A stretch of 64,000 nt of DNA. Origin: Lunularia cruciata (taxonomy: Eukaryota > Streptophyta > Marchantiopsida > Lunulariales > Lunulariaceae). This document shows positions 4,675 through 58,800 of this stretch, one piece after another. Under the pieces are notes generated by a model, which did not search any database, was not told the DNA's origin, and saw only the letters and a program-made list of their open reading frames with translations. Both the position numbers and the translations under genes were made by a program. Position 1 is the stretch's first letter, and each line of letters opens with the position of its first letter. The stretch lies in assembly GCA_948567375.1 (NCBI GenBank), contig OX419762.1, positions 43,443,034-43,507,033 on the forward strand, given 5' to 3'.

Positions 4675-5025
4675 GGCAAGACGATAAGCAACAAGGGAGA
4701 CAATTTGGGTGATATCAAAGTGTCCTATCCAATTAGGGGCAAGTTTACGAACTTAGGTATCAAGAGGGAGAGGGAGTTTACTAGAGGATAGCATGACTTT
4801 ATCACCAACTTCAAAGGTGAGATCTTGACGATGGTGGTCCGGATATTGTTTTTGGTGATACTGAGCAACAAGGAGGTGAGACTTGGCTTGTTGGAGAGAT
4901 TGGGATTTAGTGGTCAAGAATGTGGAAGTATGAGGAACCTGAGATGGAGGGGGAGCAAGAAGAGAATCTGGAACAAGCAGATCTTGACCAAAATTGAGAA
5001 AGAAAGGAGAGAATCCGGTGCTTGC

Positions 5026-5955
5026 CTATTTGGAATTATTGTAGGCAAATTTGGCAGTGGCAAGACATTCATCCCAATTGATATGGTGGACTTTGACAAA
5101 GGCACACAACATATCCTCCAATGTACGATTTGCACGTTCGGTTTGTCCATCAATTTGAGGATGATAGGCTATGGACAAAGCAAGCTTGGTGCCGAGTATC
5201 TGGAAGAGTGCTTGCCAAAACTTCTCAGTAAAACAAGGGTCACAGTCGGAGATGAGTACGCGTGGCATTCCATGATGCTTGAAGACATTGTCGAAGTAGA
5301 TTTGCGCTAAGGTTGGAGCATCCACGGTATCATAGGTTGGTGCCAAGTGGATTTGCTTACTAAGCTTATCCACAAACACCACAATGGCGGTGTGTCCTTG
5401 TTTTGTCTTTGGCAAGGATGTGATGAGATCCAAGCTCACATGCTCCCAACGAGCTGATGGAATGGCAAGCGGTTGAAGGAGTCCACCCAGCTTCTGGTTG
5501 CTGGCCTTGTTATGTTGGCAGCTCTCACAAGATCGGACAAATTCTTGAACATCTCGTGTCATGTTGGGCCACAACCATTGACGTTGGAGGGTACCTAAGG
5601 TCTTGTCCACGCCCATGTGACCAACAATGGGTAAATCATGGGCTTCTTGAAGGCACACAAGTCGAAGATCACCTTTGGTTGGAACATAGATCCAGTCCGC
5701 ATGGAATAGAAGGCATTCCTTGAAGGAGAAGGTGTTGTACTCCTTGTCACCTGTTGTTAGCCGACCATCTACCATTTGGAAGAAGGGATCTTGCTGTGGA
5801 GCTAACCAAAACTTGTTATGGATCTTGGGATCAATTGACACCGTTGTAATTGCTGCCGCGATCAGAGGAAGAGACTTCAAATTAGGTCGTCGTGGTAGAG
5901 CATCAAGGATGACATGGAACCGACCTGGTTTGTACTCAAGTTTGATGTTGAACAA
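5026..5955 (-). pseudogene. G0 integrase region
   Basis: Zinc-binding HHCC-type domain ('HMGVDKT', 'CESCQHNK') followed by a DDE core of the Ty3 type ('SLDLITSLP', 'FVDKLSKQIHLAPT', 'LISDCDPCFT', 'AYHPQIDGQTERANRTLEDM'). Part of the broken element. Confidence 0.9.
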
Positions 5956-5982
5956 TTGGAGTTGCTCTTTCCATCAATGATG

Positions 5983-7199
5983 TCAACTCTTCATGTGCTC
6001 TAGGTGTAAGGTCTGCAACAATAGCTCGTAATCAGTTTGCATGATCACTTGTTTCCCCAAGAGATAATGCCTCCATATCTTGGTGGCATATACCATTGCA
6101 AGTTGTTCTTGATCTCGAGTAGAGTTATTTCTTTCAGCTGTATTTAGTTGGCAAGACACAAAGGCAATAGGATGTAGTCCATCTGGAAATTCTTGTTGCA
6201 ACACAGCCCCAATTGCAAAGTTAGAAGTATCAAAATCAACCACACAAGGTAGTTGAGGATCATATGGTTGAAGAATGGGTCTTGAAGATACCATATGCTT
6301 TAACTTTTGGAATGCTTCTTCATGCTTGGTGGTCCATTGGAAGCTCAAGTTCTTTCCCAAGAGGTCAATCAATGGTGCAGCCACATGAGCATAATAGTGG
6401 ATGAACCGTCGGTAAAAATTGGCCAATCCATTGAATGCTTGTACTTCGGTAGCATCCTTTGGGGTAGGCCAATCAGTAATGGCCTTGATCTTCTCTTCCT
6501 CCATCTTGATCCCCTCTGATGAGATCTTATGACCCAAGAAGGTAACCTCCTTCTGCCAAAAAGCACACTTTGACTTCTCGCAGTAAAATTTCCACTGTCG
6601 TAGTCGTCTTAGGACTTCTTGCATATGATTCATATGTTCTACCTCTGTCTTGCTATAGATGAAGATATCATCTAAGAACACTACCACGGACTGATCCAAT
6701 AGTCCCGCCAACACCCGATGCATTTGATCCATGAAGACTGCTGGAGCATTAGTGAGTCCGAGAGGTAGAACTCTCCACTCAAAATGTCCATACCTTGTGC
6801 AAAAGGCAATCTTTTGCACATCCTCTCCTTCAATAGGAATTTGCCAATAGCCGCTACAAAGATCTAGTTTGGAAAAGTAGCGTGCTCCACTTAATTGATC
6901 AAGCAAGTCATCGATCCGAGGCAAGAGATATGCATTCTTCATGGTTTGCTTATTGAACCCATGGTAATCAATACTGAAACAAAGTCCTCCATCCTTCTTT
7001 GGAACAAATAGTTCCGGTGCTCCCCAAGGAGAGGTACTATGTCGTATGACTCTGTAAGTGTTGTTTGCAACTCCTCCAACTCCTTTGGTGAGAGTCGATA
7101 GATTGGTCTACTCACTGAAGTACTCCCTAGCAATAACTCGATCTTGAAAGGCATACCTTGATCAGAGGGTAATCCCTTTGGCATATCATCCAGAAACAC
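5983..7199 (-). pseudogene. G0 reverse transcriptase and RNase H region
   Basis: Typical Ty3/gypsy RT blocks: 'LPRIDDLLDQLSGARYFSKLD', 'GYWQIPIEGED', 'PLGLTNAPAVFMDQM' and the catalytic 'VFLDDIFIYSK'. These are followed by the connection and RNase H ('VVDFDTSNFAIGAVLQQ', 'YLLGKQVIMQTDY'). Part of the broken element. Confidence 0.93.
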
Positions 7200-7216
7200 A
7201 TCTGCAAACTCCTGAA

Positions 7217-7921
7217 CTATCGATCAACCATTGCTTGATGCGGCACTTGGCCCTCCTCAGATTGTTCTTGTGCAATCGGCTTGATCCACACCACGAATAC
7301 AAACTTATCTTCCTCCAAAGCTTGCACTATGGCTGCTTCATTAACAAACTTCCCTTCTAAGGACTCATCTCTCTTCCAAGCTTGCTCCATGGTTGCCTTC
7401 TTGGCAAAATTCTCATCTTGGGACTCATCTCCCTTCCAGATTTGCTCTATGGCTACTTTCTCGACAAACTTCCCATCTTGGGACTGACTATTCTTAGATG
7501 TCTTACTTAGAGGGGCCAGACAACCTAATCGGAAATTCCTACCTTGGTGTTGTACTTGAATTTGGCGTCGGGTCCAATCAAATTGAACCTTATGACGTTC
7601 AAGCCATGGTAGACCCAAAATGATATCATAGTGTAGAGGTGCCACTACAAACCTCATACACTCCAAATACTCCTTCCCAATCTTGAAGGTAACAGGATAT
7701 GAAGTGCAGAATGCAAAACCTTTTCTACCATCCACCATCATCAAACTACTTCCAATCATTGGCTTGATAGGAATACCCAATTCCTTTGCTACTTGCATAG
7801 ACATGCAATTCTCTGAACTTCCAAAATCAACCAAAATCCTACAACCCTGATTAGATATCATGCCTTGCAAGTGAAGCAAACTTGCATAGGTCGAGCCTTC
7901 AATCCCATTGGAACTAATCAA
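7217..7921 (-). pseudogene. G0 aspartic protease region
   Basis: Retropepsin-like signature 'ILVDFGSSENCMS' and the downstream 'DIILGLPWLERH' block usual in Ty3/gypsy proteases, followed by a low-complexity linker of repeated 'KFVEKVAIEQIWK'-like units. Confidence 0.85.
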
Positions 7922-7959
7922 GCTCCCAATAGGCGGCTCAAAATCTCCTATTGGGATTC

Positions 7960-8860
7960 CGCATTTCCCTAATCATTCTGCTCCACAACCTCTACTTGGG
8001 CAACTTGTCGAGGTCGTCCATTCTTGAGTGGACATTCAACAATGCAATGCCCCAACTGGCAACAATAAAAACAACCACCATTTTGTCACAGTTTCTCCCT
8101 GTCTGCCATGCCCAGTGGTCTTCATTGAATTGCATCAATCTCCATTGGTGCTGACTCCTCCACTTGTGTGTAATGTATTGGTAGGCTTTGTGGAGGTCGA
8201 GGTCGAGACCAAGTTGTTGCCACCAAGGAATCAAAACGTTCGGCCAATTGCATGGCTTCCTCCAAGTGTTGTGGCTCTTGCATGGTTACCTCTAATTTGG
8301 TTCTTGCTTTCAAGCCCCTCACAAATCGATCTAGAGCTTCACCTTCCAAAATATCTGGGATTTGCATGATGGTGTTTTGGAACTGCGTGATGTAACTTCT
8401 TATAGAGCCAATCTGTTTCAACTCTGCCAACTTATCTCATGCAGCTCGTGTGGCATTTATAGCTTGGAACTGATTGATTATTGCACTCTTGAATTTTGCC
8501 CATGTCAAGATCGGTGCAACCATTTGTCGTTTGGCTTGCTCCACTCGGAATCTCCACCATAGCTTTGCTACTCCATCCAATTGGCTAGAAGCCAAGAGAA
8601 TACTTTTTTTGCTCATCTTGTAGATTGGTAGCTTCAAAATAACGTTCACAATCAAACACAAAATTCTCCACTACACCCGAGAGATTCTTACCTTCAAATA
8701 CCTTGGGTTTAAGGAATCTGATTCAATCTTCTCCTTCTTGAATTGATACTCTCTCTACTTGCTCTTGTCGTTGAAGATCTTGTTCATCCAACAATCAAGT
8801 AAGGTGCTAGATTTGTTGTTGCATAACAAGGATAACGTCAGGTATTGCCGCCATGGTTGC
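7960..8860 (-). pseudogene. G0 gag region
   Basis: Contains the retrotransposon gag block 'AKLWWRFRVEQAKR...TWAKFKSAIINQF', then 'IQYITQFQNTIMQIPD'-like and 'DRFVRGLKARTKLEV' motifs. A CX2CX4HX4C zinc knuckle (C-F-Y-C...H...C) lies near 8,025-8,070. Part of the broken element. Confidence 0.85.
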
Positions 8861-14153: not shown

Positions 14154-17100
14154 TTACGGGATCACCGCATGGTTGTAATCATGGTACTCGAAGGTTTTCT
14201 CCACCCATTTAGACAAGTAAATTTTAGCTATTGCACTTGCTACTGCTAAACATACCAAAGGTACACTAAGACGGCTAAGCCCACGCCACGAGTTCAAGGC
14301 GGCAACTGCAACCAATCCCACCAGCGCGAACGGTAAAGCGTGTAGAACTGACTCCAGTAACCTGAATTTGGCAACAGCATTGGAGCATATCGAACATTTG
14401 GCCACATGGGCCGTGTGCCTGCAAGGAGACATGATAACAGAAGAAATTATAACTCATTGTAAGAGCAGAAGAAACGATGCGTTCCAACTTGAAAGCAAGA
14501 AAACCATCATCTAGTTTGAGGGACAAAGTAGAGTGGTGCAAAAGAAGGTTTGAGCATGTGTAGACCTAAACCTCATCCTTGAAAGTTTGGCTGACAAGTA
14601 TATAAGCAAGTACAAGATCAAAATGCCTCAACCTCAAGAAGCGACACCTGGTAACATCTACTCTGCGATCTTATATTAACAACTGTGAGAAACTTTTGAA
14701 CAAGTATATAGACAAGTACAAGATGAAAATGCCTGTACCTCAAGAAAAGAGACCTGGTTACATCTACTCATGAACTAGTCTTAACAAGTTTCTCTTTAAG
14801 AAAATATCTATCCAGTTTTGACAGTGCCCAGTCTACACAAAAGGTGTAGCTCCGTTATATAACTAATGGAAAAAGTTTAGTTAAGGATGAACATGATAGA
14901 TTGTTACCTGTCAAAAACCACCTTTCTAAGGGGACTAGGTGGTAGTGGGGATGATTTGGCTCCATAATCAACAGAATTATTCGCGAAGTTTTTGAGCCAC
15001 TTGCGGAACTCCAATACATACGCATCCACTTGAGCAGGTGTATAGTAAAGCGTATTAACGTCACCACCACGTTCCTCGATCCGATGTTGCTGCTTAGTGC
15101 AAGAATGCAAGATATTCAGCAATGTAGAAGTACGGATCGAACAAGCAAAGTTAAAACTGAAATTGAACAGTTATGCGGTCAATACCGAAAAGGAACGTAC
15201 CATTTTGTGCAGCAACCACAGATCAGAGTCTATGACCAACATGTGTTTGACATGGCCTAACCATCGCGGAGTCAACTTGAATACAATTTGGGCAAAATTT
15301 CTGGGGAAAGAGAAAATAAGTTTGCTCTTCCCCGGAGACGATGGTATGCAGTAGAAGATTGTGGAAATTTCCCTCTTAGGTTCATCCGGTTGGGCCTTCT
15401 TTCTGGACATTATCCATTCACGGAGCTTCAAAGCTAGAGGATGTCCTTTGGGCTGCATATCGAGTGATTTGTGAGTATACCGATGAGTATATATCTTTCT
15501 CATTATGCAACATTTTTGTCAACAATGACGACGCGACACGAACACTACCCACAAACCTATAGCAAAGTTCAAGGAAAGAACACATGCGCAAGGCAAAGGT
15601 TTGGTGGTGGTTAAGTCGAGTCCTGAAGAACGACTTACAGCTTTAGGAGGTTGCAGCTGGAAAACCGTATATGCCGTGACAGGAGCAAAGAATCTTAATG
15701 GCATTGTTCCATCTCTTATGCCAGCGAAGCCCTGGGCATCCGAGTGTGTGACTTCGAATTCCAAGGGTTTCGCTAAATTTCGTTTGCCCTGTAAATAATA
15801 ACCGCCGCACAAAAGTCAGCAACTCTCATTTCTTCATTTATTGGTGGAAATCCAGAGCATGACTGATGACAGACGACATAGCGTATGAATGCAGACATAA
15901 CAGGAACTTGCCTGAAGTCCGTGATGGGCAAAATGAACATGAGATGGATCCAGTAGGTTTTCAATAAGAGCTTCGTATCTGTTTAGAACGACAGAAGAAA
16001 GTACGAAAATTGCGAAAAATCTGGGGTGAGTAACATGCAGTGGAGCCCCAAAAGTGCAGCGTCTGCTAAATGAGACATATTCGTAGGCACTCTAAATTTG
16101 TTAAATGCAGTAGAGGAAAAAGTTCCTATTCCTTCCCATATACTCATTTGCGTTCCAGCAGGCAACCCTGCTTCCTGATTGTTCTCCATTTTGATCTACT
16201 GCACCAATTGCCCTAGAAGTGACATTTCAGTAATTCTCAACAAGTACTGTTTTCTCATTAAGTTCATTCTCAAGTAGATCAAACCTTAGATACTGAAAAA
16301 ACCAAGACGTACCCATAAGTCAGATCAAGCATGCCAAGATCATAGACAACATTCGGATCGTCCAGGGCCGGTACAGAAGGAGGAGGATTAGCAGCAGAAC
16401 GCTCCTCGGCACCTTCGGCCCTATCCATCCAGACCCAAATCATGCCTTGATGTTCACGACAAACGTAAACCTTTGCACACGCGCGTTTAGATTGAAGTGC
16501 CTGAAACAAAATACTGTCGGCTATTAGTCGACGGGGACGGAGTGGTGTCAAGGAGAACTGGATTGAGACTTCACATAACTGAAGCATTTATATGCAGAGT
16601 GTGGAACTTTCAGACAGATATTTAACGCAGATTATGCATATCGTTCAAAAGATGAGCGACATAACGATTGGAATAAATGGAGTACCGCTTCTCGACCCTT
16701 GTCAAGTTGAGGAATCATAGTGCAAGAACCAGAAGTAGGAGCGAAAGTCCAGCCATGGTATGAACATTGCAGGTGCCCACTTTCATGGATTCTTCCTTCT
16801 GAAAGAGGAGCCATCCGGTGAGGGCAAGCATCATCAAAAGCCTGCCACTGATTTCCTACTCGATCCCACCAGATGACCAAGTCCCGTCCTATGATAGTTT
16901 CTGCAAGAGGCTGCTGCTTGTCGACGTGCTTGACAATTGCCACAGGGTACCACTGCTCAAGCCAATTGAACTTGCCTGAAGTATCCTCTGCAGTGGACGT
17001 TTCTTTGTTGTCGAATACATCCTGAATTCCAGATCTACTCTCGCTTCCTTTTCCAGCCGTGGGGACTTCCACCATGCTTCCCCTCGGCCCAGGATAGACT

Positions 17101-17300
17101 CTATGCCATTGATTCGATTTGGATACCCGAGTGTTAATCTTTACGTTCAAACCCCCTGACAGACTCACCAACGCCGACGAAGAATTAACACTTTGGACTC
17201 GGAAATTCGTGCAAGACGAGTGTAGTACCCCGATACTGGAGCGAGCCGCAACTTGAGTTGCCAAGCTCTGCATCCTTGTTCTGCCCCAACAAAAACACAT
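14154..17300 (-). CDS. Chloroplast Rieske oxygenase, PAO/TIC55/PTC52 (ACD1-like) family
   Basis: Seven exons join in frame to a 572-residue protein: 17300-16686, 16500-16313, 15978-15912, 15788-15639, 15452-15201, 15089-14908, 14418-14154. Exon 1 gives a Ser/Arg-rich plastid-transit-like N-terminus and the Rieske [2Fe-2S] ligands (CPH...CSYH, about residues 178-200). Exon 3 carries the mononuclear-iron motif 'ENLLDPSHVHFAHH'. Exon 5 has 'FYCIPSSPGKSKLIFSFPRN'. The last exon has the family's redox CxxC (CSIC) and two hydrophobic segments near the C-terminus. Relatives sit in plastid envelope or thylakoid membranes and oxidise chlorophyll-related or protein substrates using ferredoxin. Which member this is (PTC52-like preferred) is inference from 'LDSDL'-type and 'YYTPAQVD' regions. 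Intron 3 has a GC donor (CAG|GCAAGT). An alternative start is Met at 17,273. Every junction preserves phase, and no break was seen. Confidence 0.9.
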
Positions 17301-18000
17301 AAATACTTCACGCCATGAAAAATTCCTCGCTCAATCCCTCTGCACTAGTTCTTGTTCACCAAAATTGTCACGCACAAAGATTACACACTCTACATATCGA
17401 TTATTTTTAACAATGTCCGTCTACATCTCTGAGCAATCTCAGAATTGTGATGGACAATTTGTCCATAATTTGGCACCATCTACGGCATGCCGAAAACATC
17501 AATCCCGAGCGAACGCCAGAAATGAAAGAAAGCTCACTGAACCAACTCCTAGTGCTCAAGATTACTATTCCAGAATATTGCCATTGCCCCCTCAGAATCG
17601 ATTTCAAATCAGAATTTCCATTAGGGCAACTTTTCTCGGCCTTGGACAAACAGAACAGAAACACCCTTAATCTGACGACCAGCTCATAGAATTTAATAAA
17701 ATCTCATAAACACCTCCAAGAATTCGTCAGGCTAAAATAGACCCTGTAGCAGATTCCCTAATCAGGGGCGAAAGGAAAATCTACAATCCTGACAACCTCC
17801 ACCATTGAGTTTCACTGCACGGAAGTATCATACCACAGATTGGTCAATATTCTCCGTCTCCGAATATCAACACCTAGATCGAGTCATCAACCTCAAAAAC
17901 TGATTAAAATCTCGTAAACACCGGAAAGCGCGAGTGCAGAATCGTTCCAACCCAGGATTCTGCAATCCTCGAGAGCTTCCGTCACTCACTTCACTCGGAA
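17301..18000. promoter_or_regulatory. Upstream region of the Rieske oxygenase gene
   Basis: Moderately GC-rich sequence before the minus-strand start at 17,300, probably holding the 5' UTR and promoter. No TATA box or named element could be assigned. Frames on both strands at 17,365-17,690 overlap each other and look like chance. Confidence 0.3.
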
Positions 18001-45658: not shown

Positions 45659-48500
45659 CATGTGATTTACCTTCAATTTAAAGTAAGAGAATTCTAAATT
45701 GCAATGGTTTATCCTATAAATTCTCAAAAATATTCAATCCATACAAAGAAATAAACACCTTATTAGCAAAATGAAAGATAAGAAAGCAAAAGATTGAAGT
45801 TTAAAGAAAAGGAAAAAGTACTCCAATCTAGAGTCAAATTTCCTCTTCTCATATAGATTTCAAAATCCAATTTAAAAGTGAAGCTGGAGATATGAAGTGT
45901 TTATTTATTTATTTGAGCAATGTTTGTTATAGAAAGATTGATGATAGAGTAACTAAGAATTTTTTCAATAATCTTCATTTATTTTTCTTAATTTGAAGAA
46001 GGGTAATATATACCACATCATTATAGACACATGTTCAGCTATTTGTACAGAAAAATAAAATAGAGTCAAAATATAGAACTTTAATATCACTCTTTGTCAT
46101 TCATATACTCTTAATAATCATAGATTTTTTGGATTTACTATACTTGTAACACATGAAGAAAAGAAGGGTAATGATAAAGATTTTGAGTAATTAGATCTCC
46201 TCTTGGAATTAGCATAAAAACATAAAGTCTGTATATTGATCATTCAAAATCATAAATTCTTTATATATGATAATTTATATTCTTCACTCAAAATGTAACA
46301 TATTTATTGGTATGGTATAGAAATTAGACCAATAAAAATATGTCTTAGATTGTCAAAATAGTAGATACAAGATAAAAAATAATAATTAATATTATAGTAA
46401 ATAAAAAATATTATTTGATCAATGCAAAAAAGTAAAAAAAATCATTGAATTGAAAGCATTTTCTTGAAAATTTCCAGATTATTTGAATGAAGTATTATAA
46501 GATGATATCTCAATTGAGATTATTTACCTTTACTTGTATATTCATATTCTAATTATAACAACTTGTACTTGTAAACTCACTGTAAATTTTTTTTATCATT
46601 TACAAAAGGAAATTATAAACCTAATAGCTATCAATAACAATCTCTTTTAAGTTAGCATGTCTATCCAATTTCAAACTCAAATTTTTTATGTTATTTCTTT
46701 TGACCTTTTTATAATCCAATTTAAGGGTTAATTTTTTTTATCTAGTTCTATTCAAGTACTCATCTTTATTCTAATCATATATTTTAAATAATAAAACTTT
46801 TCTTTTCCTTCTATCAATGTAATTATCATATGTGATATCAACCTTTGATGGATGTTTATTGTATATTTCATATTATATATTAGCTAAAGGGATATTTCTG
46901 CCTTGAACAAATTTTTTAGTTGAACTTATATGTATCCTTGCTAAAAATTATTCTGCATTTTGAATTCTGTTATGTACTTTTAGTGGAATCTAATCATTTG
47001 AGGTTAAATATGTATTTTTTAAAATTCTAGCCATTCAAGTAATATTAAAAAATATTTTTCATTATCTTTAATAAATTTTCACCTAAAAGGCTATAGAAAT
47101 AATTTTAAAATATAATTATAATAAACCTTCAAGTTCCAATAATGAATTTTATGAATCAATATAGATAAGAAATAAAATTTATACTAATAGAAAAAATCAT
47201 TTTATCAAAATTATATATTTAAAATAAGAAATAAGAAAACATAAATTTTCACTTTTTCCTAATTATATATCTAATATGATTCTTTTTTATATGATAGGTA
47301 TAGTATAGCAAATATATGGTATGCACATTCCTTTGAATTAAACCCATGATGTTTTCTAGTCATAAGAAAGATGTTAAGTTAAAAAAAATGATATACCTGT
47401 ATCCATATATATATTTAGAACAAATGATCTATATTTAGTTAATCTTTTATTGATTAATTTGACATGAATGTAGAAAGTTGGTATGTATGTTGGTACAAAT
47501 TTAAATGACCATAATTTTTTAAAAGATTAGAATAAATAGTTTGAATTTTTACATATTGTATTTAATTTTATTATAGTATTTAGTTTTATTGATAAAAATG
47601 AATAATTTTATGAATATTCTTAAATTAATGGAAAAATATATTTTATAAGTAATACTTATAATGTATATAGATTTATTATTAGAATGTTACAAACTAATTT
47701 GAATTGTATTCAAATTAGGAAATTATCTTTGAATTACAAGGAAGTTGTAATTCAAAACCTACAAGGATTAACCTTATTTTCATTATATTAGATAAATATT
47801 CAGATGATATAAAGGCTTGAATTCTAACTTGTAAGATTTTTAACTGGTCTAATAAAGTTCAGTTATTTTTTTGAGTATATATACTCTATATTCATAGCTC
47901 GTTGAAAGTAAGCTTAAAACACATTTATTGCAAAATTAGTAGAATATTTAGAAGTTTTACCATAAATTTGATGTTGAAAGTAAACTTAAAACACATTTAT
48001 TGCAAAATTAGTAGAATATTTAGAAGTTTTACCATAAATTTGATGTTGAATTAGGGGAAAATCACTAAACCGGACGTCCATTCCAGGGAAAACAAAACAT
48101 AGGAGACCTTCTAGTCTATGATTATAACGCAATTCTCTCAAGGTCTATAACAATTATAGAACATATTCGTATTTTTAAGCATATTAAAAACCAAATATTA
48201 TTGTGAATATATCCAGGTCTTTGAAGCTATAAAAATCACCTAACTAGATATTAAAAATATAAAATTAAATTAATTTTTTATTAATATTACATGAAAAGAG
48301 AGGAGTAATGTCAATATTATAAATTATTTATTATTAACCACCATATTATAATCATATGTGATATTTTTTCATATTTTATATTAAAATTCAATATATAGAT
48401 ATCCAATTTAACAGCTAATTATAAAAGAGGATACTATTCTAATATTTTTTGAACGTGTTAATAGTGTGTAAGTCATATAAAACATATGTTTTACATTATT
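45480..48500. other. AT-rich spacer, no gene seen
   Basis: AT-rich with no reading frame of coding quality. Contains an (AT)n tract (about 45,607-45,657) and a 72-bp tandem duplication (47,902-48,045). Confidence 0.6.
47902..48050. repeat. 72-bp tandem duplication, two units
   Basis: The unit beginning TTGAAAGTAAGCTTAAAACAC starts at 47,902 and again at 47,974, with one mismatch (AAGC/AAAC) seen. A stub of a third unit (TTGAA) starts at 48,046. Confidence 0.97.
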
Positions 48501-49117
48501 ATGATGTCTAAAATATCAGGGAACGGATCGGATCTCTTCCCAAATTATTTTTGTATCTAGGCCCCATCTTAACGCACTAGACTTTCACGTATACAATTTA
48601 ATAAAATCTTTAGTACTTTTTACTATTCTCCTCGCCCGCCACCCCCTCTCGGTCTTGATCGATAATTTGGGAAAAGATGTTTGTTTTTGGAGCGGTAGGT
48701 TTTAATCCACCCAAGGACCTTCACAAGACCAAGTTCAATCAACATGTGAACAGACGGAGTCAGAACTTACAAGCCCGGAGTGGTATGCTATGGCACCGTA
48801 TTAGTCTCTACTATGTTCAGATTTCTCGCACAGGTTGTTATAGCTAATTTACATAGATAGAGTACCTCCAAAATTGGCACCTTGACTTAACTCCTAAGTT
48901 GGGAAAAGGAGTTCACCAATCCCCTTGAAACCTCGATTGTCAATCTTATGTGAAAATGACACAACACACAGAATCATGGTTTCCAGCATGAACTCCTTCT
49001 ACACCAACTATAACTCACAAATACCACGTCTTGGCACTTTGGGTCGGTTAAGTCTTTCTCTGGGCTTATTCACAAGTAAATTCTTAGGTTCGCTCATTAC
49101 TTCATTAAAGTTCGGTT
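48500..49117. other. 3' flank of double-homeobox gene A
   Basis: Composition rises toward the gene. A plus-strand frame at 48,925-49,209 overlaps the last exon of gene A antisense and is treated as its shadow. No other feature was recognised. Confidence 0.4.
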
Positions 49118-52100
49118 TCATGAGAGCCCAACATCCCCACATCCCAAGCAGGTTCGACGACAATCTCTATGTGAGAACAAACGTGCAGTGGCTGCAAAAT
49201 AGGGTATGAATCTCTCGTCTGTGAGGCGCGGGGGATTCCCATCCCGAATCCTATCTTTTATGGTTGAATAAACATGTATTGTCTTATGTTCTCTTTTAAT
49301 CGTCGATATCATTTTACATGCATGTAAATTGCATAGACACCAACCGATCCACACATTAAGTTTCCTGCATCTTGGAAATTTTTTACGCAGTTGTTTGCAT
49401 CCACCTTTCACTTCCTATCACCTTAAATCGAGCCTAGTGTGTACAATTTGGGCGAATAGATGCGAAGGTTAACATCACTTTTCCTATCTAACTTTTGCGT
49501 TTCTTTCTCAGATAATTCATTTATAGAGGGATAGTACACAACGCTACATGCGCACATAATATCCAAGATGTGTAGGATGTTCCTGACGGTTAGATATATC
49601 GAAAGTTATTTGACCTGCTTCTCCTGGTTTACGAGAGGTGTGAGAGGTATACGTTTGGTGTATGGTGGTACAGTCACTCAGCAAGCTATTATAGATACTT
49701 CCCTCTTTTTCTCCGTCACAAATTGATGTACTGAAGGGGGTCAAACCTACCAAATTGAATATTTTGTTGTAAATATTCCTTTTTCCTTGGAATTAAGTTA
49801 GTCTTCTTTATCCATAGGGAAGGAACAAATACCTGAGCATATTCCAAATTTACTTGGGGCTGTAGTATCCTTGCTATGTCCTGCCCGACGAATGGCTCAT
49901 TAGCGTGAGCTATTAGCCAGTTCCTACACAAGGCAACTCCATGTCATATGATGCGTTTTTCGAATCTGTTTGAATTTGCGATTCACCACCGCAAATTGAC
50001 GATACAACAACTGGACGTGATTAACCGAGACGAGGACCAATAATGGAGATGATCTCTTTCCCCTCTTTTACGTGCATAGCTCATTAGCGTGAGCTATTAG
50101 CCAGTTCCTACACAAGGCAACTCCATGTCATATGATGCGTTTTTCGAATCTGTTTGAATTTGCGATTCACCTCCGCAAATTGACGATACAACAACTGGAC
50201 GTGATTAACCGAGACGAGGACCAATAATGGAGATGATCTCTTTCCCCTGCGATAGGGCAGATTTCTTGGGGCTTAGCCCCATGTTACCCTTTTTGTCTCT
50301 CCCTTGTACGGCTTGATGGGGTCTTCCCATCCTTCATTTTTCCTACGCGGTCGCCTTTTACTCGCTTATTGGTGGTTTATTTAGTGTCTACATTTTCATG
50401 CTCAGTCATGTGCAACTTTACAGTGAAAAGCACTTGAAAGGAATTTGAGGGTTTTTTGTGCTTTTGCGGAACTCTTAAGCTTCCAGAACTCACATGAATT
50501 GGTCAGCTCCATTCACTTCCATATTGGCGATGCGAGCATTTCCATCAAATTAAATGCAAAATCTACATAATATGCACGTGGTGATTGAAGTAATACCTCA
50601 TCACCTCTGTCTGCTCCGAAGTAAACTTAGTTGGTTTCCTTATTCGTCTAGCCTCCGGAGGTGCAACCCATCTTTGTACGCGGTACTTCGACAAATAAGT
50701 AATTACCTGTTCCACATAGATTTTTATAGTTTTGATAAATGAAAATTTCTATATATAATTCTATAGCGATATGATACAGCAAGTATTTGGAAAAGAAAGG
50801 GAAAATTCCTGCGAAAATTCAAGTCATGTAGACGCATGACTTGAAAGAGGATCGACATGGGGATAGGAAATGGAGTCCATGAGCAATGCCTAAAGCATCA
50901 AACCGGTTAAATTGTTCCTTGGACAGTTTGTACGTGGAAGTTCTATGACAAACTTATATGAATATAGCAGATCCTTGTTTTAATGTGTAGTAAATTACAT
51001 TCGTTCTTCAAGATCAGGTCTATTCCTACTAACCTGTCCTGCTACATGTCTACGAACTCTTTTTCCCTTTGTTTTGGATTTCTCAGCTTGGAAATGTATA
51101 TATTATGATTAGTTGGCTGCTTATCGATATCAGAAATATGAGCATATTTCGGGGGTAGACTAGCAAAGTAACCAGTACGGTCAGTCTTGCTACCGTAATA
51201 GACAAGACAAAGATAGCACATAAAAAAGATCTCAGTGAAACGAGTTGTGAGGGAACCGAGATATTAGGTGGGGGAACTCACAGATTTTTTAAGCATTCCT
51301 GTCTCCTCTACTAGAAGTCTGATTCTTTCACGATTGGGATATGGGTTGCCTTGGTTTTCGGCTATGAATTTACTGTATCGCACAAGGAAAAGAATTATTC
51401 GAAACACAAATGAGAAAACAACAGTTACAATGAATTTGAGAGAGTAAACTTATCAGATAAATTCAGATCATGATAAGGCATGTCTGATGTTATAGTAACT
51501 CTTAGGAGTATCTCTTATGTGATCACTATATCAAATTTCTTCACATATCAGTCTAAGTAGAGTATCATGTTACTTACTCAAGAACTCTCCTACAGAATCG
51601 CGGATAGTTCTTGCATTTGAGAGACTGTCCAGACCTAGGCTCGTTTCTTATGCATGTTGATATAGTTGTGACAAGATCCTGCTCGGAAATACAGGGACGA
51701 AACCAGTATTAGTACATATAAGTACGTGGATATCCATCTCACAAAATTGAGCATCAGCGTTAACCGTTTCTCAAAACATGAAATTATATCTATTTCCAAG
51801 GCTTTTTAGGTGGTGGTGCAAAACCTAGTCGATCTCGATTAGATATTACAAAGACTTTGTTTCTATAAGCAGAAAAAAAGTGATAACTGACAATACGCCA
51901 GTTATCACTCTAACTTGAACTGACTTTTTTGAAACAGAGCATGATGAAATCTGCTTTGCTCTCAGCATCTGGCGCTGCATCCACTTCCTGAAACTTTTTC
52001 CCCCAACAACATTGAACCGGATCTCTAGTCGGGTCACACTCAGGTGCACAGTGTCGAGGACGACCGATTATCCGGTCCTGCAAAATATCACCACGCGAGC

Positions 52101-53342
52101 TTCATCGAATTGGTAAAGCTACCAAGCAAACTTTAAGGCATCTAAGTCATTAATCGTGATGCACGAAACATCTCACAAAGCAATGGGCCTTCACTAGGCA
52201 AACAGAGCTCGCATTCAATTTTTCTTCTCAAGGTGAGTACAACTACGTGCAGTAGAGCAGTATTGTGCCTCAGGGTATTCTGGACACATCAGGGATTTAC
52301 CCTATACAGGTCGACAACAAACTGGCAGCTCTCCGTGAAAATCCGTGGATTTTGTAACAACTGATATCCCAACATAATATCTACGAAGGTCCATCTTAGT
52401 ATCTGAAGTGTATCTTGTTCCCTATAAGCATATATCGTCATGGTCTTAGGACTTGGCTGATCGGGAGAGTGAGCTCCTGTGTCGCTTTGGCGTGCTACGG
52501 CATTACGGGCATTGTTCAGGAGTGCAGTGTGAGCTCTTTCGAGCCATCCAGCTTCAACCAAGAACTCGTCGCTTTCTTCTCCTTGCGTAGGATCTCTATC
52601 CTGAGTCGAGTCCTCTGACTGATCATCTGAACTTCCAGTCGACGCTGACGGGGAGGCTGGTGGGAGGTGCCGATGTGATGGAGATCCTCGTTCTCCACGT
52701 CCAGCTGCTTGCCCTCTTCCACCTCCTGGTGCACGCCCACGCCCACGCCCACGTCCTCGTGCCAAGCCACCCCTCGCTGGTGGTTGCTGGTGTTCTCTTT
52801 CTTGTGGTGGCGGCGGGTTTGCACCTTGGGCAGCCACGGAATCAGTAGGACTGATGGGAGGCATATCTAGGCCATCCAGAGGAAAGAATTGATTTCCTCC
52901 CCTTTGCATCGCCATAGAGTCAGTGGGACTAATTGGAGGCAGATCGAGGGCCGAAAAGTCAGGAGGCGGAGGTAAATTGAGTTCATCTACAGCATAATAA
53001 TCACTCCCTCCCTCTTGGTACTCCTCAGGGTGGAAGGGTACCGGTACTGCAATTGCACGGAAATTGAAAAAGTCTGGGAGCTCTGCTCCGTCAAATGCAG
53101 GAATTCGATCGTTCATTTCAATATCTTCTGGAACTTCTTCGTCTCGAAAACCGAGCGGCAGCACTCGTGGATCTACGTTCTGGCCTCGAGGAAGAAGAGG
53201 CACTGCCATCCTCTCTTCGAATTCCGCCATATCGTCGGCGTAGTCATCAACGCTAATGTCGCCGAATTGGTCGTCGTTAATAGGTTGAACGTTGTTGTTG
53301 AGCCCTTGGTTTTGGTTATCAGGCTGGACCTGGCCGTTGGGT
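49118..53342 (-). CDS. Gene A: protein with Cys-rich module and two divergent TALE/BELL-like homeodomains
   Basis: Seven exons stay in frame: 53342-52301, 52077-51925, 51678-51578, 51372-51282, 50706-50597, 49923-49833, 49282-49118 (about 583 residues). Exon 1 (347 codons) is disordered: acidic start, two 'LD-PPISPTDS' repeats (about residues 140-180), an RGG-type run (about 200-230) and an acidic Ser tail. Exon 2 has 'RPRHCAPECDP' and 'CCW'. Exons 3-5 give homeodomain 1 ('YPRFC', 'NPYPNRER', 'YRVQRW'); exons 5-7 give homeodomain 2 ('NWLIAHANEPF'). Exon sizes 153, 101, 91 and 91 equal those of gene B. The first exon opens at a phase-2 acceptor without an ATG, so a short 5' exon is missing; a candidate lies just upstream at about 53,480-53,500. 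The last exon's acceptor is weak and was chosen by homology to gene B. Likely a nuclear regulator. No POX or MEINOX domain seen. Confidence 0.75.
49895..50248 (-). repeat. 170-bp direct duplication inside gene A, 14-bp spacer
   Basis: 49,895-50,064 and 50,079-50,248 differ at one base by eye (CACCACCGC/CACCTCCGC). The first copy contains the 5' 29 bases of exon 6 and its acceptor; the second copy repeats that acceptor and exon start inside intron 5, then ends exactly where a LINE tail begins. Confidence 0.96.
50249..50358 (+). repeat. LINE-tail copy in intron 5 of gene A
   Basis: GCGATAGGGCAGATTTCTTGGGGCTTAGCCCCATG through CTACGCGGTCGCC, antisense to the gene. Of the extra copies it is the closest match to the LINE 3' end at 560-670. 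Confidence 0.65.
50668..51618 (-). other. Homeodomain 1 of gene A (spans exons 3-5)
   Basis: Helix 1 begins 'YPRFCRRVL', the TALE three-residue loop reads 'NPYP', helix 2 'RIRLLVEETG', and the recognition helix 'VITYLSKYRVQRW'. Position 48 is Tyr, 51 is Lys instead of Asn, 53 is Arg. The end 'RVQRW' parallels BELL 'RVRLW'. Confidence 0.78.
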
Positions 53343-53528
53343 CTGTGTAAAAGATGTGCCACAGTTTCGTTGACTTAATTATTGAAGCTTGTTTCTGCTA
53401 AATAGACCTAGAGTGAATTCAAGAAAGTTGTATATTGAGTTCATAAATTATAGAATTGCAATATCGATGGGCTCTTAACGCCATCATTTGAAAACACATA
53501 TCCGTCTCTATAAGTGGTCGTAGGGATA
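53343..53528. promoter_or_regulatory. Short interval between gene B stop and the first recognised exon of gene A
   Basis: Only 186 bp separate the TAA of gene B (53,529-53,531) from the phase-2 acceptor of gene A. On the minus strand it holds ATGATGGC followed by GTTAAG, which could be a tiny first exon (Met-Met-GC, phase 2) with a possible donor. This is speculative. Any separate promoter for gene A must fit here, or gene A is transcribed from further upstream. Confidence 0.3.
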
Positions 53529-56500
53529 TTACTCTTCAATTGCATGCATACTCCTTATGGCAGCTTGACGAAAATCATCTGGTGTTAAGTACTTCCTCCT
53601 CGTACAGAGCTCTTTGTTTCTTTCTCGAAAAGTTAGCACCCATTCGCGAACCTGATTAAGATAAGGATGATGAACAGTTAATGCCTCAAAGGAGGTAAGA
53701 TCTAATAACGACCACTGTCTGTAAAACCCAATAAAACTACCAGTTGTCTACTCTAAGTACGCCTGTATGCCCAGGTTGTATTTAACATATAGTGCAGCCA
53801 ACATACAGGATGATATAGTAGAGAGGGAAAATGTGAAAATAAGTCCTTTGTATTATACCGTTGACATGCTGGATAGTACTTAGTAAGGGGGTAGCCAATG
53901 TAACACATTTTTCATCCTAGATACACAAAACACCTAGAAACAACGATCCTTGATCTTACAGGAGTTTCTCATGTGTTCTCTGAGATTAATTACAAGTAGC
54001 AGAAAATACATTATACTACTAGGACATATCATAGATATACTACGAAATGCACAGCGTATCCCGCGATTATATTATAAAAATGAGAAAAAAGCTTACGTTT
54101 GTGCACCGTTGTCATATATTTCAATATATGACAAGTTCCTTCAAGTTCCTTCAAGTTCCTAAACTATGCTCTATGCATGGGGCATGAGAAACAAATACAC
54201 CTTAACTTTGACTTCATTCATACCTTACGTTAGACCAGAAACATCAATTACTCTCATGAAACCGTCATAAATGAACATCATCAAGGTAAAGGTCTCATGA
54301 AGACTTAGGTAGGATAATAACCTAAGGTCGCTTTAGTTGCTTTTTAAAATTACTTTTATTATTATTATTAGAATTTGATCATCGTGCCACTGAGCTATAT
54401 TATTAAGTCGGCTGCTGATGAGCTTTCAACTTGAACTTTTCAGAGGATTCAGATCTTAATTATGCTTATAAGTTACTGGTTAAATATCATACTACCTGGT
54501 CCCAAGTTACACCAATTTTCTTTGCTATGGAAATTGCTTCCCATTTGCGCATATAAGGATCATCTTTCCTTTTCACAACCCAGTCCCTGCGAAGTCACCA
54601 GGAGTAGTAATCACGAGGACAGTTTCTGAAAGTTATGAATAGAAGCCATTCTGAGGATCAGGGATGTCTGGCTGGGTATACACAACTACTTCCAATAAGC
54701 TTTAGAGAAGAGATTCATTCCATTGATGTCTACGAACCATCCCTTATTTATACACGGAAACGAAGATTTATATTTTCTCACGATCGATCATCGTAAAAGT
54801 TGATCCGGCTGTCTACATGTACAGTTTGCAGAGAACAATATGATAGATATGCGCATGAACGTAGAAATTAACAGAACAATCAATTTGTAGTCGTACAGCA
54901 GTTCCCTTTGTGGTGGCCGTGGTGCTCTCTGGACTACGGGCGGGCTCAGCGGCAGTTGCCGCCTAACACTTGCTTCACTTTGTCGTGCAGTGGGAGGCAA
55001 CCATCGATTTATACGGAATCGCACTATATAGTTCTCGACCTGGATCAAGAAAATCATGCAACACAGATTAACGTGAATAACCTTTCAATGTTTCAAAGTT
55101 TAACGCTCCATGCTTTGCACCTACTACATTCAAGTTGATATCGAGTATTGGTCTCTTAGCTTCAGCCATCTGTCTTAGAACACAATTTGCGTGCAAATCC
55201 GTACTAGAAGAACTCTGCAATTCCACGAGCTTCATACTTGATTCTTGTGTGGATATTGTACTTCCTCTCGGTTCAAAGTTAACTTGACATTGTATTAATT
55301 CAGACAGTCATACATTTCTGCAAACGAGGCAAGGACACAAACCACACTACATTTTACTAGCGACGCCTTAGTAGGTCTCCGTCTTGATTTATTATTTTGC
55401 CGAGCAGATGTAATTTTGAAGAATAATACCTGAAGTGGTTCTAGGCCAGTACTAATTGCGAGGTTCTCCACATCACTTGGGGAAGGATATGGGTCGTTAG
55501 CGTGAGTGAGTATCCAATCCCTGTATTAACGAAAATGACACAAAACAGGTAGAAGCGGTTTCGTGTTAGAATGTAGCGCACAAAAGTGCAAGACACAAGG
55601 AGCGTAGCCTAATTTTTAAAGACGTCGTCCGGACGTGTGGCCAGATAATTTGACTAGACTCCGAGGAATTTTGATCATGTGAATTCTTTCCATAATTGAT
55701 TCTCGTATATCGTTCAAACATCAAAAATTCCGGTTGTCTATCTTTGATCTGCAAAGCATTTTCACTTACTCAAGCATGTCGGTACAGAATTTGGGGTAAC
55801 GTTTCAATCCTTGACGTCCAAGCTTCGTTGGGTCATCAGCAATATGTTTGCAAATAATTTTGACAAGAACCTGGAGGCGCAAAAGAGAAGATCGCCGTCA
55901 ACCAAAGACATGCATATATTCGAGGACTAATTCTGCAAAGATACAAAGCTTGAGAATCGCAACAAGAAATAGGAGGATGAAATCCCGCTTTTTGCACATG
56001 TTTCGTACATTGAATTTTTGTAATGCTGGACCTGCCAATTAGAGAGTATCCAACGTGAAGGTAAGAAAGAATAGAACAAAATTTCAGAACTCAAAATTTA
56101 ACAGTCATTCATCACAACGTGAAGATTGGAGCAAATGCATGCCATAAGTTCTAGAAGGTTTTAAAGCCGTGGAACAGGGCTCACTCTCTGGTACATAACC
56201 ATAAGGCAGTTCCAGCGTTCAGCAGGATTTTCAAGTGCTCTTAGGAATCCAAACGTTGGATTCCAGCAGCAGTCCATCGCATCCATATTTGGATCACATT
56301 GTGGGTAGCAGTGTCTCGGTCGATTGAGGTGAGCTGCCTGCACGACGTTACTTTATCGTTATGTCTTTACATACGGTGTGCGTCTAACTCTAAACATGGC
56401 CAATTGGCTACAATAATAGTTCATCAAGGCAAACAGACTTTGTTGTCCTCAACCTGTTTGCTGTTTCTCTATGCTGTATAATATTAGGAACAATGTCCGA

Positions 56501-57439
56501 TATTTCATGTGATAATGTACCACTAATAGGATGTACAACGTCTCTGTTGAATATTTGTGTCAATAACTAGTGTACTAATTTTCGCGTCCTGATACATAGC
56601 TATAGCAAATAGAAGTCAATTCCCTTGTTATGATATCTTGCATGATAACTTTATACCCAACGACTTCGTAAACTTCATTGACAGGTTGTAGAAAGGACGA
56701 GCAGCTTAAGAAACCGGTGATTATGCTGCAGGATGTGCGAAATAAACTTTGAAGCGGTAATGTATTTTCCGACTAGAGATACGCGGAACACACCTTGTAT
56801 AGTTCCACATAAAAGCCCAATTCGTGTAACAATGTCCGCTTCCGATCCATGGACCTTGATGAAAGCCACATATCGTCCAGGAAATCGTCCATAAGAGTTT
56901 CAAGGACATCCACGGACGGCTCCATTTCCCTTTCATCCGGATTTGGGTTTGCAGATGACGAACCAGCTACCCTCTTCCCCTTCCTTCGATGTAGGTCTCC
57001 GCCAGCACGTTTCTTGCCACGCGCAGCCACATTTTGTGCCACCTGCACTTGTGCATGCGGTATATTTTCAATGCGGTAATCTGCTCGAAGCCCTTCATCC
57101 CCAATCAAGTTTTGAGGATGTTGCTGTGCCTCAGGAACAGCAGCACCTTCGTTTTGTCCCGCGGGGAAATGTGGCTGCTGACCTTGGTTTGGTTGGATAT
57201 GGTATTCAGCTGCATGAGGTAGAGGTAGCGGACCTCTAGGCGCGTCTGGAGCTTGACGAGCAACGTTATCATATGGTGGCAACTGCTGGAACATGGCATC
57301 TTGGAAGACAGCGGCATTGTTTGTATCGTCCGGATCTATTATATAGTTCTCTTCCACTAAGTCTTGAATTGGTGCACCTTGTGGTGGTCGTTGATCAGCA
57401 GGATGCTGAGGGTCAGCGCAACCAGTGGCCATAGCTCCC
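53529..57439 (-). CDS. Gene B: protein with Cys-rich module and two divergent TALE/BELL-like homeodomains
   Basis: Seven exons join without a break: 57439-56794, 56337-56185, 55870-55770, 55520-55430, 55039-54897, 54586-54496, 53651-53529. From the ATG at 57,432 they encode 446 residues. Exon 1 is disordered, rich in Pro, Gln and Asn, with a basic nuclear-signal-like run ('GKKRAGGDLHRRKGKR', about residues 140-155). Exon 2 carries 'RPRHCYPQCDP' and 'DCCW'. Homeodomain 1 reads 'KRYPKFCTDML', 'HANDPYPSPSD', 'STGLEPLQ', 'VENYIVRFRINRW'; from the Trp to the final Trp its length equals that of BELL proteins. A Pro-rich linker leads to homeodomain 2 ('LLDWVVKRKDDPYM', 'VREWVLTFRERNK'), then 'YLTPDDFRQAAIRSM' and the stop. 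Exon 1 also opens at a phase-2 acceptor (GACAG|G), so more 5' exons may exist. Probable nuclear regulator; target and partners unknown. Confidence 0.82.
53613..54930 (-). other. Homeodomain 2 of gene B (spans exons 5-7)
   Basis: 'QRELLDWVVKRKDDPYM' gives helix 1 and the loop with 'DPY' kept. The recognition helix 'VREWVLTFRERNK' keeps Trp48 and Arg53 but has Thr at 51. The exon is again 91 bp, and both its introns have the same phases as those of homeodomain 1. Confidence 0.8.
55001..55810 (-). other. Homeodomain 1 of gene B (spans exons 3-5)
   Basis: Best-preserved of the four: helix 1 'YPKFCTDMLEDWILTHA', TALE loop 'NDPYP', 'LAISTGLEPLQ', then 'VENYIVRFRINRW'. Position 48 Tyr, 51 Arg, 53 Arg. 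Ungapped alignment to a generic BELL homeodomain from the helix-1 Trp onward. Confidence 0.88.
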
Positions 57440-58800
57440 CTGTCACATACCAAATTTACTTCAGTGATGCTTACTTTCGATTTTCATAATGTAACACTGA
57501 TCTGAATAAAACACATTCATTTCGTAGTGCTCAACATAGGGTTTCCAGCTGGTCCATGCGAATGTTAACGCACACGGACTAGTCTCAGGCGTCATTACAG
57601 AATCTGAGTTAATGTTAATCGTTTCTAATGTTGGAGGATACTTCCTATCTTGAGGGAATTCCAAATGTCTGAACAACTTTCGTCAACATCTTGTGTTGAA
57701 CGAGTTACCTAGCCGAAATCAAACTGTAGGTGTGATCAAAAAAATTTCTACTCTATAAATCGCTGCCTGTACCAGTTGCTGTCCTATTTTGAATTGCCTT
57801 TTCGGACTGATCCTGTACTTTCATCTGGCTCTTATCGGGCAAATTGTAAGCCTAGGCAAAGGTCATACAGCTGGACAAGACTGAGAGGTGTATGAGGTGA
57901 GATCTCCAGTTAGGTCATTAGCAGATTTACATGCTTATTTGATAGCGCAGACAGGACACTGTTACATTTGATTGGAAACTGATCAGGTTCTCTTGACAAT
58001 GACAATGGTCACAAATTCAATCTCCTACCATGGTTCGTTAAAGAGGTTCCAGACGTCGAAATTGTCATCTGTCCCGAACAAGAATCTCTGGAATTGATTG
58101 TTGTCTTTATTGTGTGGATCCATCCGTCAAATGCTATATCTTTCTTGAGGTCATTTATCGAGTCGCAAACTGTTTCGTTAGAAAAGGTATGTCTATAGAA
58201 ATCTTAGCTTGTCGCTTCCTGTTTGCTCCTGTGTCTAGGGAACTCAGATGGTTATCAATTTCCATTAGAATCCATTAACATGCACAATGTCACTTAGAAC
58301 CTTGTCAAACGTGAAGTTACTGCTCGAATTTGGGAACAGTTGAAGCATTATATAATTACTATCCTAAACTTGGACTCAAATCGGAAACGTGAGTTGTGTT
58401 GTTGAATTCAACAAGAGGCGGAGAAGAGCTCCGGTTTGTTCAGATGGTATATGCATGATCCAGGTGACGGCTCTAGCGTACTTAGCAGGGACAGCGAACT
58501 CTAGCGTTCTCAGTTTAACCTTTCAAGTTGCGACTGGGAATGTTTCGCCATCCGTGTCAAGCAATTCTTATTAGAGTCCGTGATCAGTTCATGCACATAC
58601 CTTGCTGGCATTGTTCAGCATCTGCCGTGAATCCAAATTCATGTTGATAACGCCTGTCGCCTCGACCGATTTAGTTACGTAAAAAGCTGTAACTGAGTTG
58701 AATTCTTACGTACCTTGGATACTCGCAATTCTTACGTACCTTGGATACTCGGCGTGAATGCTGCTCGCGGCTTGATAATATGAGGTACTAGCGCCTGCGT
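57440..58800 (-). other. Upstream region of gene B with possible 5' exons
   Basis: The minus strand holds strong donor sites without assigned exons: CCAAG|GTACGT twice in a 26-bp tandem duplication (58,701-58,751), and AGCAAG|GTATGT at 58,600 preceded by an ATG frame 'MNLDSRQMLNNASK' (58,642-58,601). Joining the last directly to the exon at 57,439 would not keep frame, so if used these are 5' UTR exons or need another exon between. Confidence 0.3.
58701..58751. repeat. 26-bp tandem duplication containing a splice-donor consensus
   Basis: AATTCTTACGTACCTTGGATACTCG occurs at 58,701 and 58,727. On the minus strand each copy contains AAG|GTACGTAAG. Confidence 0.95.

Follow-up and report, generated by a model that had tools for sequence, protein, structure and literature searches.

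Two adjacent predicted genes of Lunularia cruciata (Marchantiopsida), referred to here as A and B, belong to a family with at least ten members in this genome. In the predicted proteins of its fully modelled members, a conserved cysteine-rich (Cys) module is followed by two homeodomains of the TALE type, HD1 and HD2, which apparently arose by internal duplication and the second of which is degenerate in two members. Both genes lie within a stretch of 64,000 nucleotides on contig C12 (positions 43443034 to 43507033; below, the window) of the 566-Mb assembly, which consists of 74 contigs; the six chromosome-size contigs measured are 60 to 85 Mb long and together make up about 417 Mb. For these gene models, the layout, the homeodomain assignment, the duplication, the clustering of the genes, and the loss of residue Asn51 from nearly all of the homeodomains are shown by the sequence. 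The family can probably be assigned to the double-homeodomain class of BELL genes that is known from Marchantia as “BELL-gamete,” as a lineage-specific, fast-evolving branch of that class.

The region from 48500 to 58500 of the window was re-read on both strands and the exon chains were rebuilt, with splicing modelled from the genomic sequence. As had been claimed in a preliminary description, A and B each consist of seven minus-strand exons that join in frame; all introns are of the GT-AG type and their phases match throughout. Gene A extends from the start codon at 57432 to 53529 and encodes 446 amino acids in exons of 639, 153, 101, 91, 143, 91, and 123 bp, and gene B (53230 to 48623) encodes 523 amino acids in exons of 930, 153, 101, 91, 110, 91, and 96 bp, so that the four exon sizes previously listed as common to both genes (153, 101, 91, and 91 bp) are exact. 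The two proteins share 31% identity over 175 amino acids (BLASTP E value of 2e-29). In gene A, exon 1 (56794..57432) encodes a low-complexity N terminus that appears disordered by eye and closes with a conserved stretch, helical-looking by eye (VDVLETLMDDFLDDMW...VELYK), which aligns with B. Exon 2 (56185..56337) carries the Cys module in the form H-x4-C-x8-C-C-W, exon 3 (55770..55870) a linker and helix 1 of HD1, exon 4 (55430..55520) HD1 residues 17 to 44 with the TALE loop DPYP, and exon 5 (54897..55039) helix 3 of HD1 (Tyr48, Arg51, and Arg53) and a linker. Residues 17 to 44 of HD2 are encoded by exon 6 (54496..54586), and its helix 3 (Trp48, Thr51, and Arg53), the C terminus, and the stop codon by exon 7 (53529..53651).

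In gene B, exon 1 (52301..53230) starts with an acidic, RG-rich N terminus, disordered by eye, that is followed by the same conserved end; its reading frame stays open upstream as far as 53374. The Cys module is found in exon 2 (51925..52077), which is followed by exon 3 (51578..51678), exon 4 (51282..51372; HD1 with the loop NPYP), exon 5 (50597..50706; helix 3 of HD1 with Tyr48, Lys51, and Arg53, a linker, and the start of HD2), exon 6 (49833..49923; HD2 residues 17 to 44), and exon 7 (48623..48718; helix 3 of HD2 with Trp48, Thr51, and Arg53, and the stop codon). The 3′ end of B is at 48623, beyond the coordinates given in the preliminary description, and not near 49118. A last exon near 49118 was considered and replaced by the one at 48718 to 48623, as no phase-0 acceptor there, among those listed down to 48600, opens with a sequence resembling helix 3. 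An in-phase opening with the pattern V..W....R occurs at only two of the 3,726 minus-strand AG sites of the window, 53651 (exon 7 of A) and 48718 (exon 7 of B), and at none of its plus-strand AG sites; this pattern was derived from A after the frame in B had been noticed, so the count shows how rare the pattern is but does not amount to a blind test. Intron 5 of B contains a 184-bp tandem duplication (49895 to 50248, 99% matching) that includes a broken extra start of exon 6, reading RNWLIAHANE and then a stop codon.

To search for further copies, 312 kb around the window were assembled, and the Cys motif and exon profiles were used to identify eight copies between approximately 43.407 and 43.534 Mb on C12 (∼126 kb). 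Their order and strands are c1 (−), c2 (+), c3 (+), B (−), A (−), c5 (−), c6 (+), and c7 (+). A genome search with A revealed a second such pair, A′ and B′, in the same order on contig C7 at 54.05 to 54.07 Mb, with phases identical to those of A and B and nearly equal exon sizes. As the two pairs reside on two different chromosome-size contigs, they are paralogues and not alleles. The same search returned weak matches to two genes on C2 (E values of 0.13 and 0.35) and missed c2, c3, c6, and c7 at E ≤ 1, which makes ten copies a lower bound. Exons 2 to 7 can be joined in frame and free of stop codons in eight of the ten copies, including c6 and c7, although the exon boundaries of the paralogues were selected for agreement with the phases found in A and B, so that this property is partly by construction. 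The two incomplete copies are c2, in which exon 5 was not found, and c5, modelled for exons 2 to 4 only. Exon 2 is 153 bp long in seven of the ten copies; the exon profiles include the copies that were seen first, and independent matches to exon 2 are limited to c6 and c7 (1.1e-6 each) and c3 (0.042). The last exons of c6 (1,003 residues, C12:43520785-43523796) and c7 (723 residues, C12:43531630-43533801) are very long, and the former has no convincing match in Pfam; over exons 2 to 7, c6 and c7 are 47% identical. In c6, an NPYT-containing frame initially taken for exon 6 turned out to lie within the intron, beginning immediately behind the donor of exon 5; it was replaced by a frame that is partly common with c7.

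On the profile evidence, both halves of A and B are TALE homeodomains, in agreement with the preliminary description. A profile built from six family genes matches Meis2 at HD1 (4.5e-8) and Extradenticle/PBX at HD2 (1.7e-8) in the PDB, and its matches among solved structures comprise Meis, PBX, Exd, and MATalpha2. In gene A, HD1 is recognized in exon 4 by the Pfam domain Homeobox_KN (4e-9) and by Meis2 (2.7e-7), and HD2 taken alone gives a weak match to the yeast MATa1 homeodomain (E value of 0.019). Homeobox_KN scores above its cut-off in A, A′, B′, and c3, as well as in B when exons 2 to 7 are scanned (26.6 bits, in HD1, over a cut-off of 24 bits); the longer B protein without exon 7 scores 21.7 bits, below the cut-off. 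The identity of HD2 is settled by the paralogues B′ and c3, whose whole proteins match Homeobox_KN (8.7e-9 and 8.7e-8, respectively) most strongly in HD2; B′ has a second matching stretch. Further, when scored with a profile of four homeodomains from outside the family, 15 of the 17 modelled family homeodomains, among them the four from A and B, surpass every one of 200 shuffles each. The 91-bp exons are thus located within homeodomains by Pfam, by the six-member profile, and by the shuffle control, so that one of the two refuting outcomes named in the preliminary description, a placement of these exons outside homeodomains, did not materialize. The number of residues between positions 17 and 45 is 30, the TALE length, in all ten homeodomains of A, B, A′, B′, and c3 and ranges from 31 to 34 (one to four residues longer) in the six homeodomains of c1, c6, and c7. 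Among the TALE marks named earlier, the DPYP/NPYP loops and the R-RW ends are present in both A and B, but the TGLEPLQV block is found in A only, its counterpart in B being TGMLKKSV.

No POX, KNOX, or MEINOX domain was detected by Pfam at E ≤ 10 in A and B (the latter without exon 7) or in exons 2 to 7 of A′, B′, B, c1, and c3, which bears out the earlier statement on the lack of these partner domains for the proteins scanned; of c6, the scans covered the last exon. A search of the whole genome with POX (PF07526) produced no match at E ≤ 1, with controls equally silent, so that it does not show absence. Similarly, no PBC-like (PBL) domain was seen before the homeodomains in the Pfam scans, which included no comparison with PBL profiles. 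The PBL domains have very low identity among themselves, according to the available part of PMC6219170, and the stretch preceding the Cys module could be such a domain.

The residues Trp48, Asn51, and Arg53 are near-invariant in helix 3 of homeodomains, with Asn51 being the usual base-contacting residue. Among the 17 modelled homeodomains of the family, Asn51 is kept in a single one, HD2 of B′, whereas all three other BELL-type homeodomains examined in this genome (two, HDa and HDb, in a gene on C10, and one in a gene on C2) have it; both of these genes, described below, retain Trp48 and Arg53 as well. The sequence NWFINQRKR is found in KNOX-type exons of contigs C11 and C7. In the HD2s of the nine genes modelled for this part, Trp48 is found in all nine, an aromatic residue at position 52 in eight, and Arg53 in eight; position 51 is Thr in five (A, B, A′, c6, and c7). 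In the HD1s of eight genes, position 48 is Tyr in six, Trp in B′, and Phe in c3, and position 51 reads R, K, Q, A, H, K, Q, and G, never Asn. A helix-3 pattern with an aromatic residue at position 48 served to choose exon 5 of c1 and exon 7 of both c1 and c2, and for the two exons 7 it also required a polar residue at position 53, so these rows are not independent for positions 48 and 53; position 51 was left free.

Both homeodomains of A, B, A′, and B′ are split by introns at the same two places, 17(2/3) and 44/45, which indicates that HD2 arose by internal duplication. The 44/45 intron is considered the ancestral TALE intron in the available part of PMC6219170. The simplest reading is that one internal duplication preceded the expansion of the gene family. 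In a homeodomain tree that left c2 out, the HD1s and the HD2s group by position, with two label changes each compared with 5.7 and 5.6 in shuffled labels; values as low as those observed were reached in 2 and 1 of 500 shuffles, respectively.

The pattern H-x4-C-x8-C-C-[WFY] is present with fixed spacing in all ten family copies, which supports the conserved module of the preliminary description. It was read off these same copies, so that its presence is by construction and the finding lies in the fixed spacing and in its absence elsewhere. In six-frame translation of the 312 kb, it has exactly eight matches, one per copy, and none outside the copies; the 14.5 kb taken from C7 contain two, in A′ and B′; and 20 randomized versions of the 312 kb, made by permuting the letters inside blocks of 1 kb, contain none. 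The Cys module could bind zinc or form disulfides.

In Marchantia, five BELL genes have been described: one canonical, one GLX-basal, and three termed “BELL-gamete,” MpBELL2, MpBELL3, and MpBELL4 (PMC8476127, 2021). In the available text of that report, the last three have two or three homeodomains, lack a readily discernible PBC domain, are highly diverse in sequence, and are related to genes of liverworts, some mosses, and charophytes. This removes the earlier suggestion that a double-homeodomain, POX-less family had not been described in plants: the class itself is already known, having been published in 2021. The Lunularia genes resemble MpBELL2/3/4 in being TALE genes of the BELL, not the KNOX, side, in having homeodomains multiplied by internal duplication (two here, two or three there), in lacking a canonical POX or evident PBC domain, in their fast evolution, and in including some large members (here c6 and c7, judging from their last exons). 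Conversely, every Lunularia copy has the Cys module, which is unmentioned for Marchantia in the accessible portion of PMC8476127; Asn51 has been lost from 16 of the 17 modelled homeodomains, a count that refers to Lunularia alone; and eight of the genes lie in a tandem cluster, with a further pair on another contig, whereas the Marchantia genes are located apart from one another, judging from their gene numbers. Canonical land-plant BELL proteins are likewise TALE proteins, but two homeodomains are present here, POX was not found in A, B, A′, B′, c1, and c3, and the BELL-type intron at homeodomain position 24(2/3) (PMC6219170, as far as available) is absent from the homeodomains of A and B. 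In the literature searched, to the extent that the texts could be accessed, multi-homeodomain BELL genes are described only in PMC8476127, and nothing like a multiplied, Asn51-less double-homeodomain family with a Cys module was found. The eight-copy cluster, the C7 pair, the presence of the Cys module in all copies, and the loss of Asn51 appear to be new.

The gene on C10 mentioned above (12.19 to 12.20 Mb; L006 and L036) matches the description of MpBELL2/3/4 in having two homeodomains, with the carboxyl one scoring best, and is perhaps the counterpart of these genes in this genome; no second copy of it is present among the Homeobox_KN matches listed. Like the family, it has introns 17(2/3) and 44/45 in both homeodomains. 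Unlike the family, it has Trp48, Asn51, and Arg53 intact in both, and no Cys module was seen in the stretches inspected (L006, by eye, and 4 kb of upstream sequence). Other BELL-like genes form a very similar tandem pair on C2, at 74.79 and 74.82 Mb (L003 and L004), each with a long exon that ends in one homeodomain. In L003, there is an intron at 44/45 only, Asn51 is present, and no further homeodomain was seen by eye in the 4 kb upstream.

Several observations weigh against the reading of the family as a branch of the double-homeodomain BELL class and against the role proposed for it below. A search for relatives of the six-member profile among 5.8 billion proteins, restricted to proteins of similar lengths with shared words, found none at E ≤ 10 (1,775 candidates). 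The Cys module has no known source, as neither the 4 kb that precede the C10 gene nor, by eye, its L006 stretch yielded one. In the C10 gene, HDa (on an 88-bp exon) is one residue short of the TALE length. Within the family, c1 scores only 14.2 bits with Homeobox_KN, below the cut-off, and the HD2s of c6 and c7 did not pass the shuffle control (7 and 88 of 200 shuffles as high, respectively) and look degenerate. The homeodomain tree is weak: 10 of its 17 inner branches are unsupported, and the HD1s and the HD2s each form one group in only 34% of the bootstrap trees. In addition, long branches meet in it, HD2 of c1 is placed among the HD1s, and HDa of the C10 gene, rather than HDb, falls inside the family. 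Two other searches were equally negative. None of 662 candidates proved to be a relative of A in the protein search, and no match was found in viral contigs, a collection unlikely to contain plant genes. As a control for the protein search, a Rieske-domain exon from the window retrieved 45 proteins, including those of the seed plants Salvia, Ficus, Dovyalis, and Ipomoea but no named bryophyte.

At fertilization in Marchantia, MpKNOX1 contributed by the egg acts together with MpBELL3 and MpBELL4; these proteins act in the gametes and the zygote, where BELL is required to bring KNOX to the pronuclei (PMC8476127 and PMC8478417, both from 2021, in the parts available). The best explanation for the whole of the Lunularia data, to which we would give a probability of roughly 45%, is that A, B, and their paralogues encode BELL-derived partners or decoys of KNOX in the gametes or the zygote; a partner or decoy role at fertilization, taken by itself, falls a little further below an even chance. 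In such a scheme, the Cys module together with the conserved stretch that closes exon 1 would form a partner-binding part that recognizes a KNOX-type protein and occupies the place of the POX or PBC-like domains of the relatives. Because Asn51 is nearly always lost, the homeodomains would read DNA weakly or differently, so that the proteins would work mainly through their partners. Once bound to KNOX in a gamete or the zygote, they could bring it into the nucleus or else act as competitors of the intact BELL protein with two homeodomains that is encoded on C10. The partner, the tissue, and the direction of the effect are our inferences.

The most serious alternative, which we nevertheless consider unlikely, is that these proteins are ordinary sequence-specific transcription factors of a new specificity that use both domains, the loss of Asn51 being compensated by a basic residue 51 in HD1 and by Thr51 together with aromatic residue 52 in HD2. 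The constancy of HD2 (nine Trp48, eight Arg53, eight aromatic residues at position 52, and five Thr51 in nine HD2s, with the above reservation on c1 and c2 for positions 48 and 53) would fit this possibility, as would the Phe52 that accompanies Asn51 in HDb of the C10 gene and the dN/dS (nonsynonymous-to-synonymous substitution rate) ratios below 1. HD1, however, does not look like a maintained reading surface: its position 51 varies freely, and Trp48 is replaced in seven of the eight HD1s.

The dN/dS ratios calculated by the NG86 method for exons 2 to 7 are 0.61 for A and A′ (229 codons), 0.61 for B and B′ (209 codons), and 0.50 for c6 and c7 (893 codons), all of them point estimates obtained without a significance test; the value for A and B, 0.38 (211 codons), is unreliable at a dS of 2.3. 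The suggestion of fast evolution made in the preliminary description is upheld by the first three pairs, and we read the family as coding sequence under some constraint that evolves fast for a transcription factor, although a part of this signal could reflect relaxed constraint. The high ratios could also be expected of a decaying tandem array in which numerous copies, and perhaps B as well, are turning into pseudogenes without function. This improbable alternative would account for the unrecognizable middle of HD2 in c6 and c7, for the reduction of c5 to exons 2 to 4 and the lack of exon 5 in c2, and for the recent duplication in intron 5 of B with its broken exon 6 start; the presence of a retroelement in the vicinity would also fit it. 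It is harder to reconcile with the exact spacing of the Cys module in all ten copies, with the ratios below 1 in all four pairs tested, and with the stop-free joining of exons 2 to 7 in eight copies (boundaries fitted to the phases of A and B), including the long last exons of c6 and c7.

Tandem homeodomain genes decide the compatibility of gametes in mushrooms, and the Lunularia cluster might, by the same token, be a mating-type-like or sex-linked recognition locus whose alleles or copies determine which gametes are compatible. The clustering of divergent, fast-evolving TALE genes is in line with such a role, as is the use of homeodomain pairs at fertilization by fungi, algae, and a liverwort (PMC8478417, in the part available), but we regard it as quite improbable. 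A/B and A′/B′ are paralogues rather than alleles, with one genome compared, and the single BPC gene found is located on C15 and not on C12. The genes BPCU and BPCV are located in liverwort sex-determining regions, as stated in the accessible part of PMC13182070. The location on C15 is weak evidence either way, since C15 is a contig of 1.1 Mb without an assigned chromosome. Of the two roles proposed earlier, a reproductive one is thus a reasonable deduction from the BELL-gamete class, whereas sex linkage finds no support here. It is also unlikely, about as much so as the decay of the array, that a gamete BELL gene has been turned into a clustered, fast-changing set that lacks base reading by Asn51, has acquired a new metal-binding or disulfide-forming Cys module, and provides partners or antagonists for recognition at fertilization that are specific to a copy or an allele. 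If true, this recognition reading of the cluster would make it a plant parallel of the fungal homeodomain mating loci or of the DUX and Rhox clusters. DUX4, a double homeobox protein of animals that is encoded in a repeat array and has a role in the zygote, and the mouse Rhox clusters of reproductive homeobox genes are functional parallels, as far as the sources available describe them, with no homology as a system. The homeodomains of DUX4 and Rhox are not of the TALE type.

Finally, fusion of A and B into one gene or transcript with four homeodomains is very improbable and was rejected: the stop codon of A is only ∼150 bp (C12) or ∼175 bp (C7) from a conserved block before B that ends in a good-looking splice acceptor on both contigs, but splicing to it from the conserved donor near the end of exon 7 of A (GGA/GTATG) would leave B out of frame (phases checked by hand), and each gene has a complete layout of its own.

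The conserved block between A and B is 37 bp long (53343..53379, minus strand) and identical in 33 of 37 positions, as counted by hand, to the corresponding place between A′ and B′ on C7, amid flanking sequences that have diverged between C12 and C7. As all four differences would alter an amino acid in the frame of B, the block is probably not coding; it is probably a splice or promoter element. Elsewhere in the window, positions 4291 to 7972 of the minus strand contain pieces of the protease, reverse transcriptase, RNase H, integrase, and chromodomain of a retroelement that we would classify as Ty3/gypsy type. The Rieske-domain exon used as a search control (16632 to 17330, minus strand) resembles plant flavonoid 8-hydroxylase 2, chloroplastic, and protochlorophyllide-dependent translocon component 52.

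The pairs of KNOX and BELL proteins are a known switch from the haploid to the diploid phase in green plants. The presence in Lunularia of at least ten fast-changing BELL-type genes, with changed residues at DNA-reading positions and a new module, suggests that this conserved switch can become a target of rapid, perhaps conflict-driven, evolution. The cluster also suggests that the BELL-gamete class described in 2021 is more varied than its Marchantia members, and it provides a concrete set of genes in which rapid evolution of the KNOX/BELL switch can be tested.

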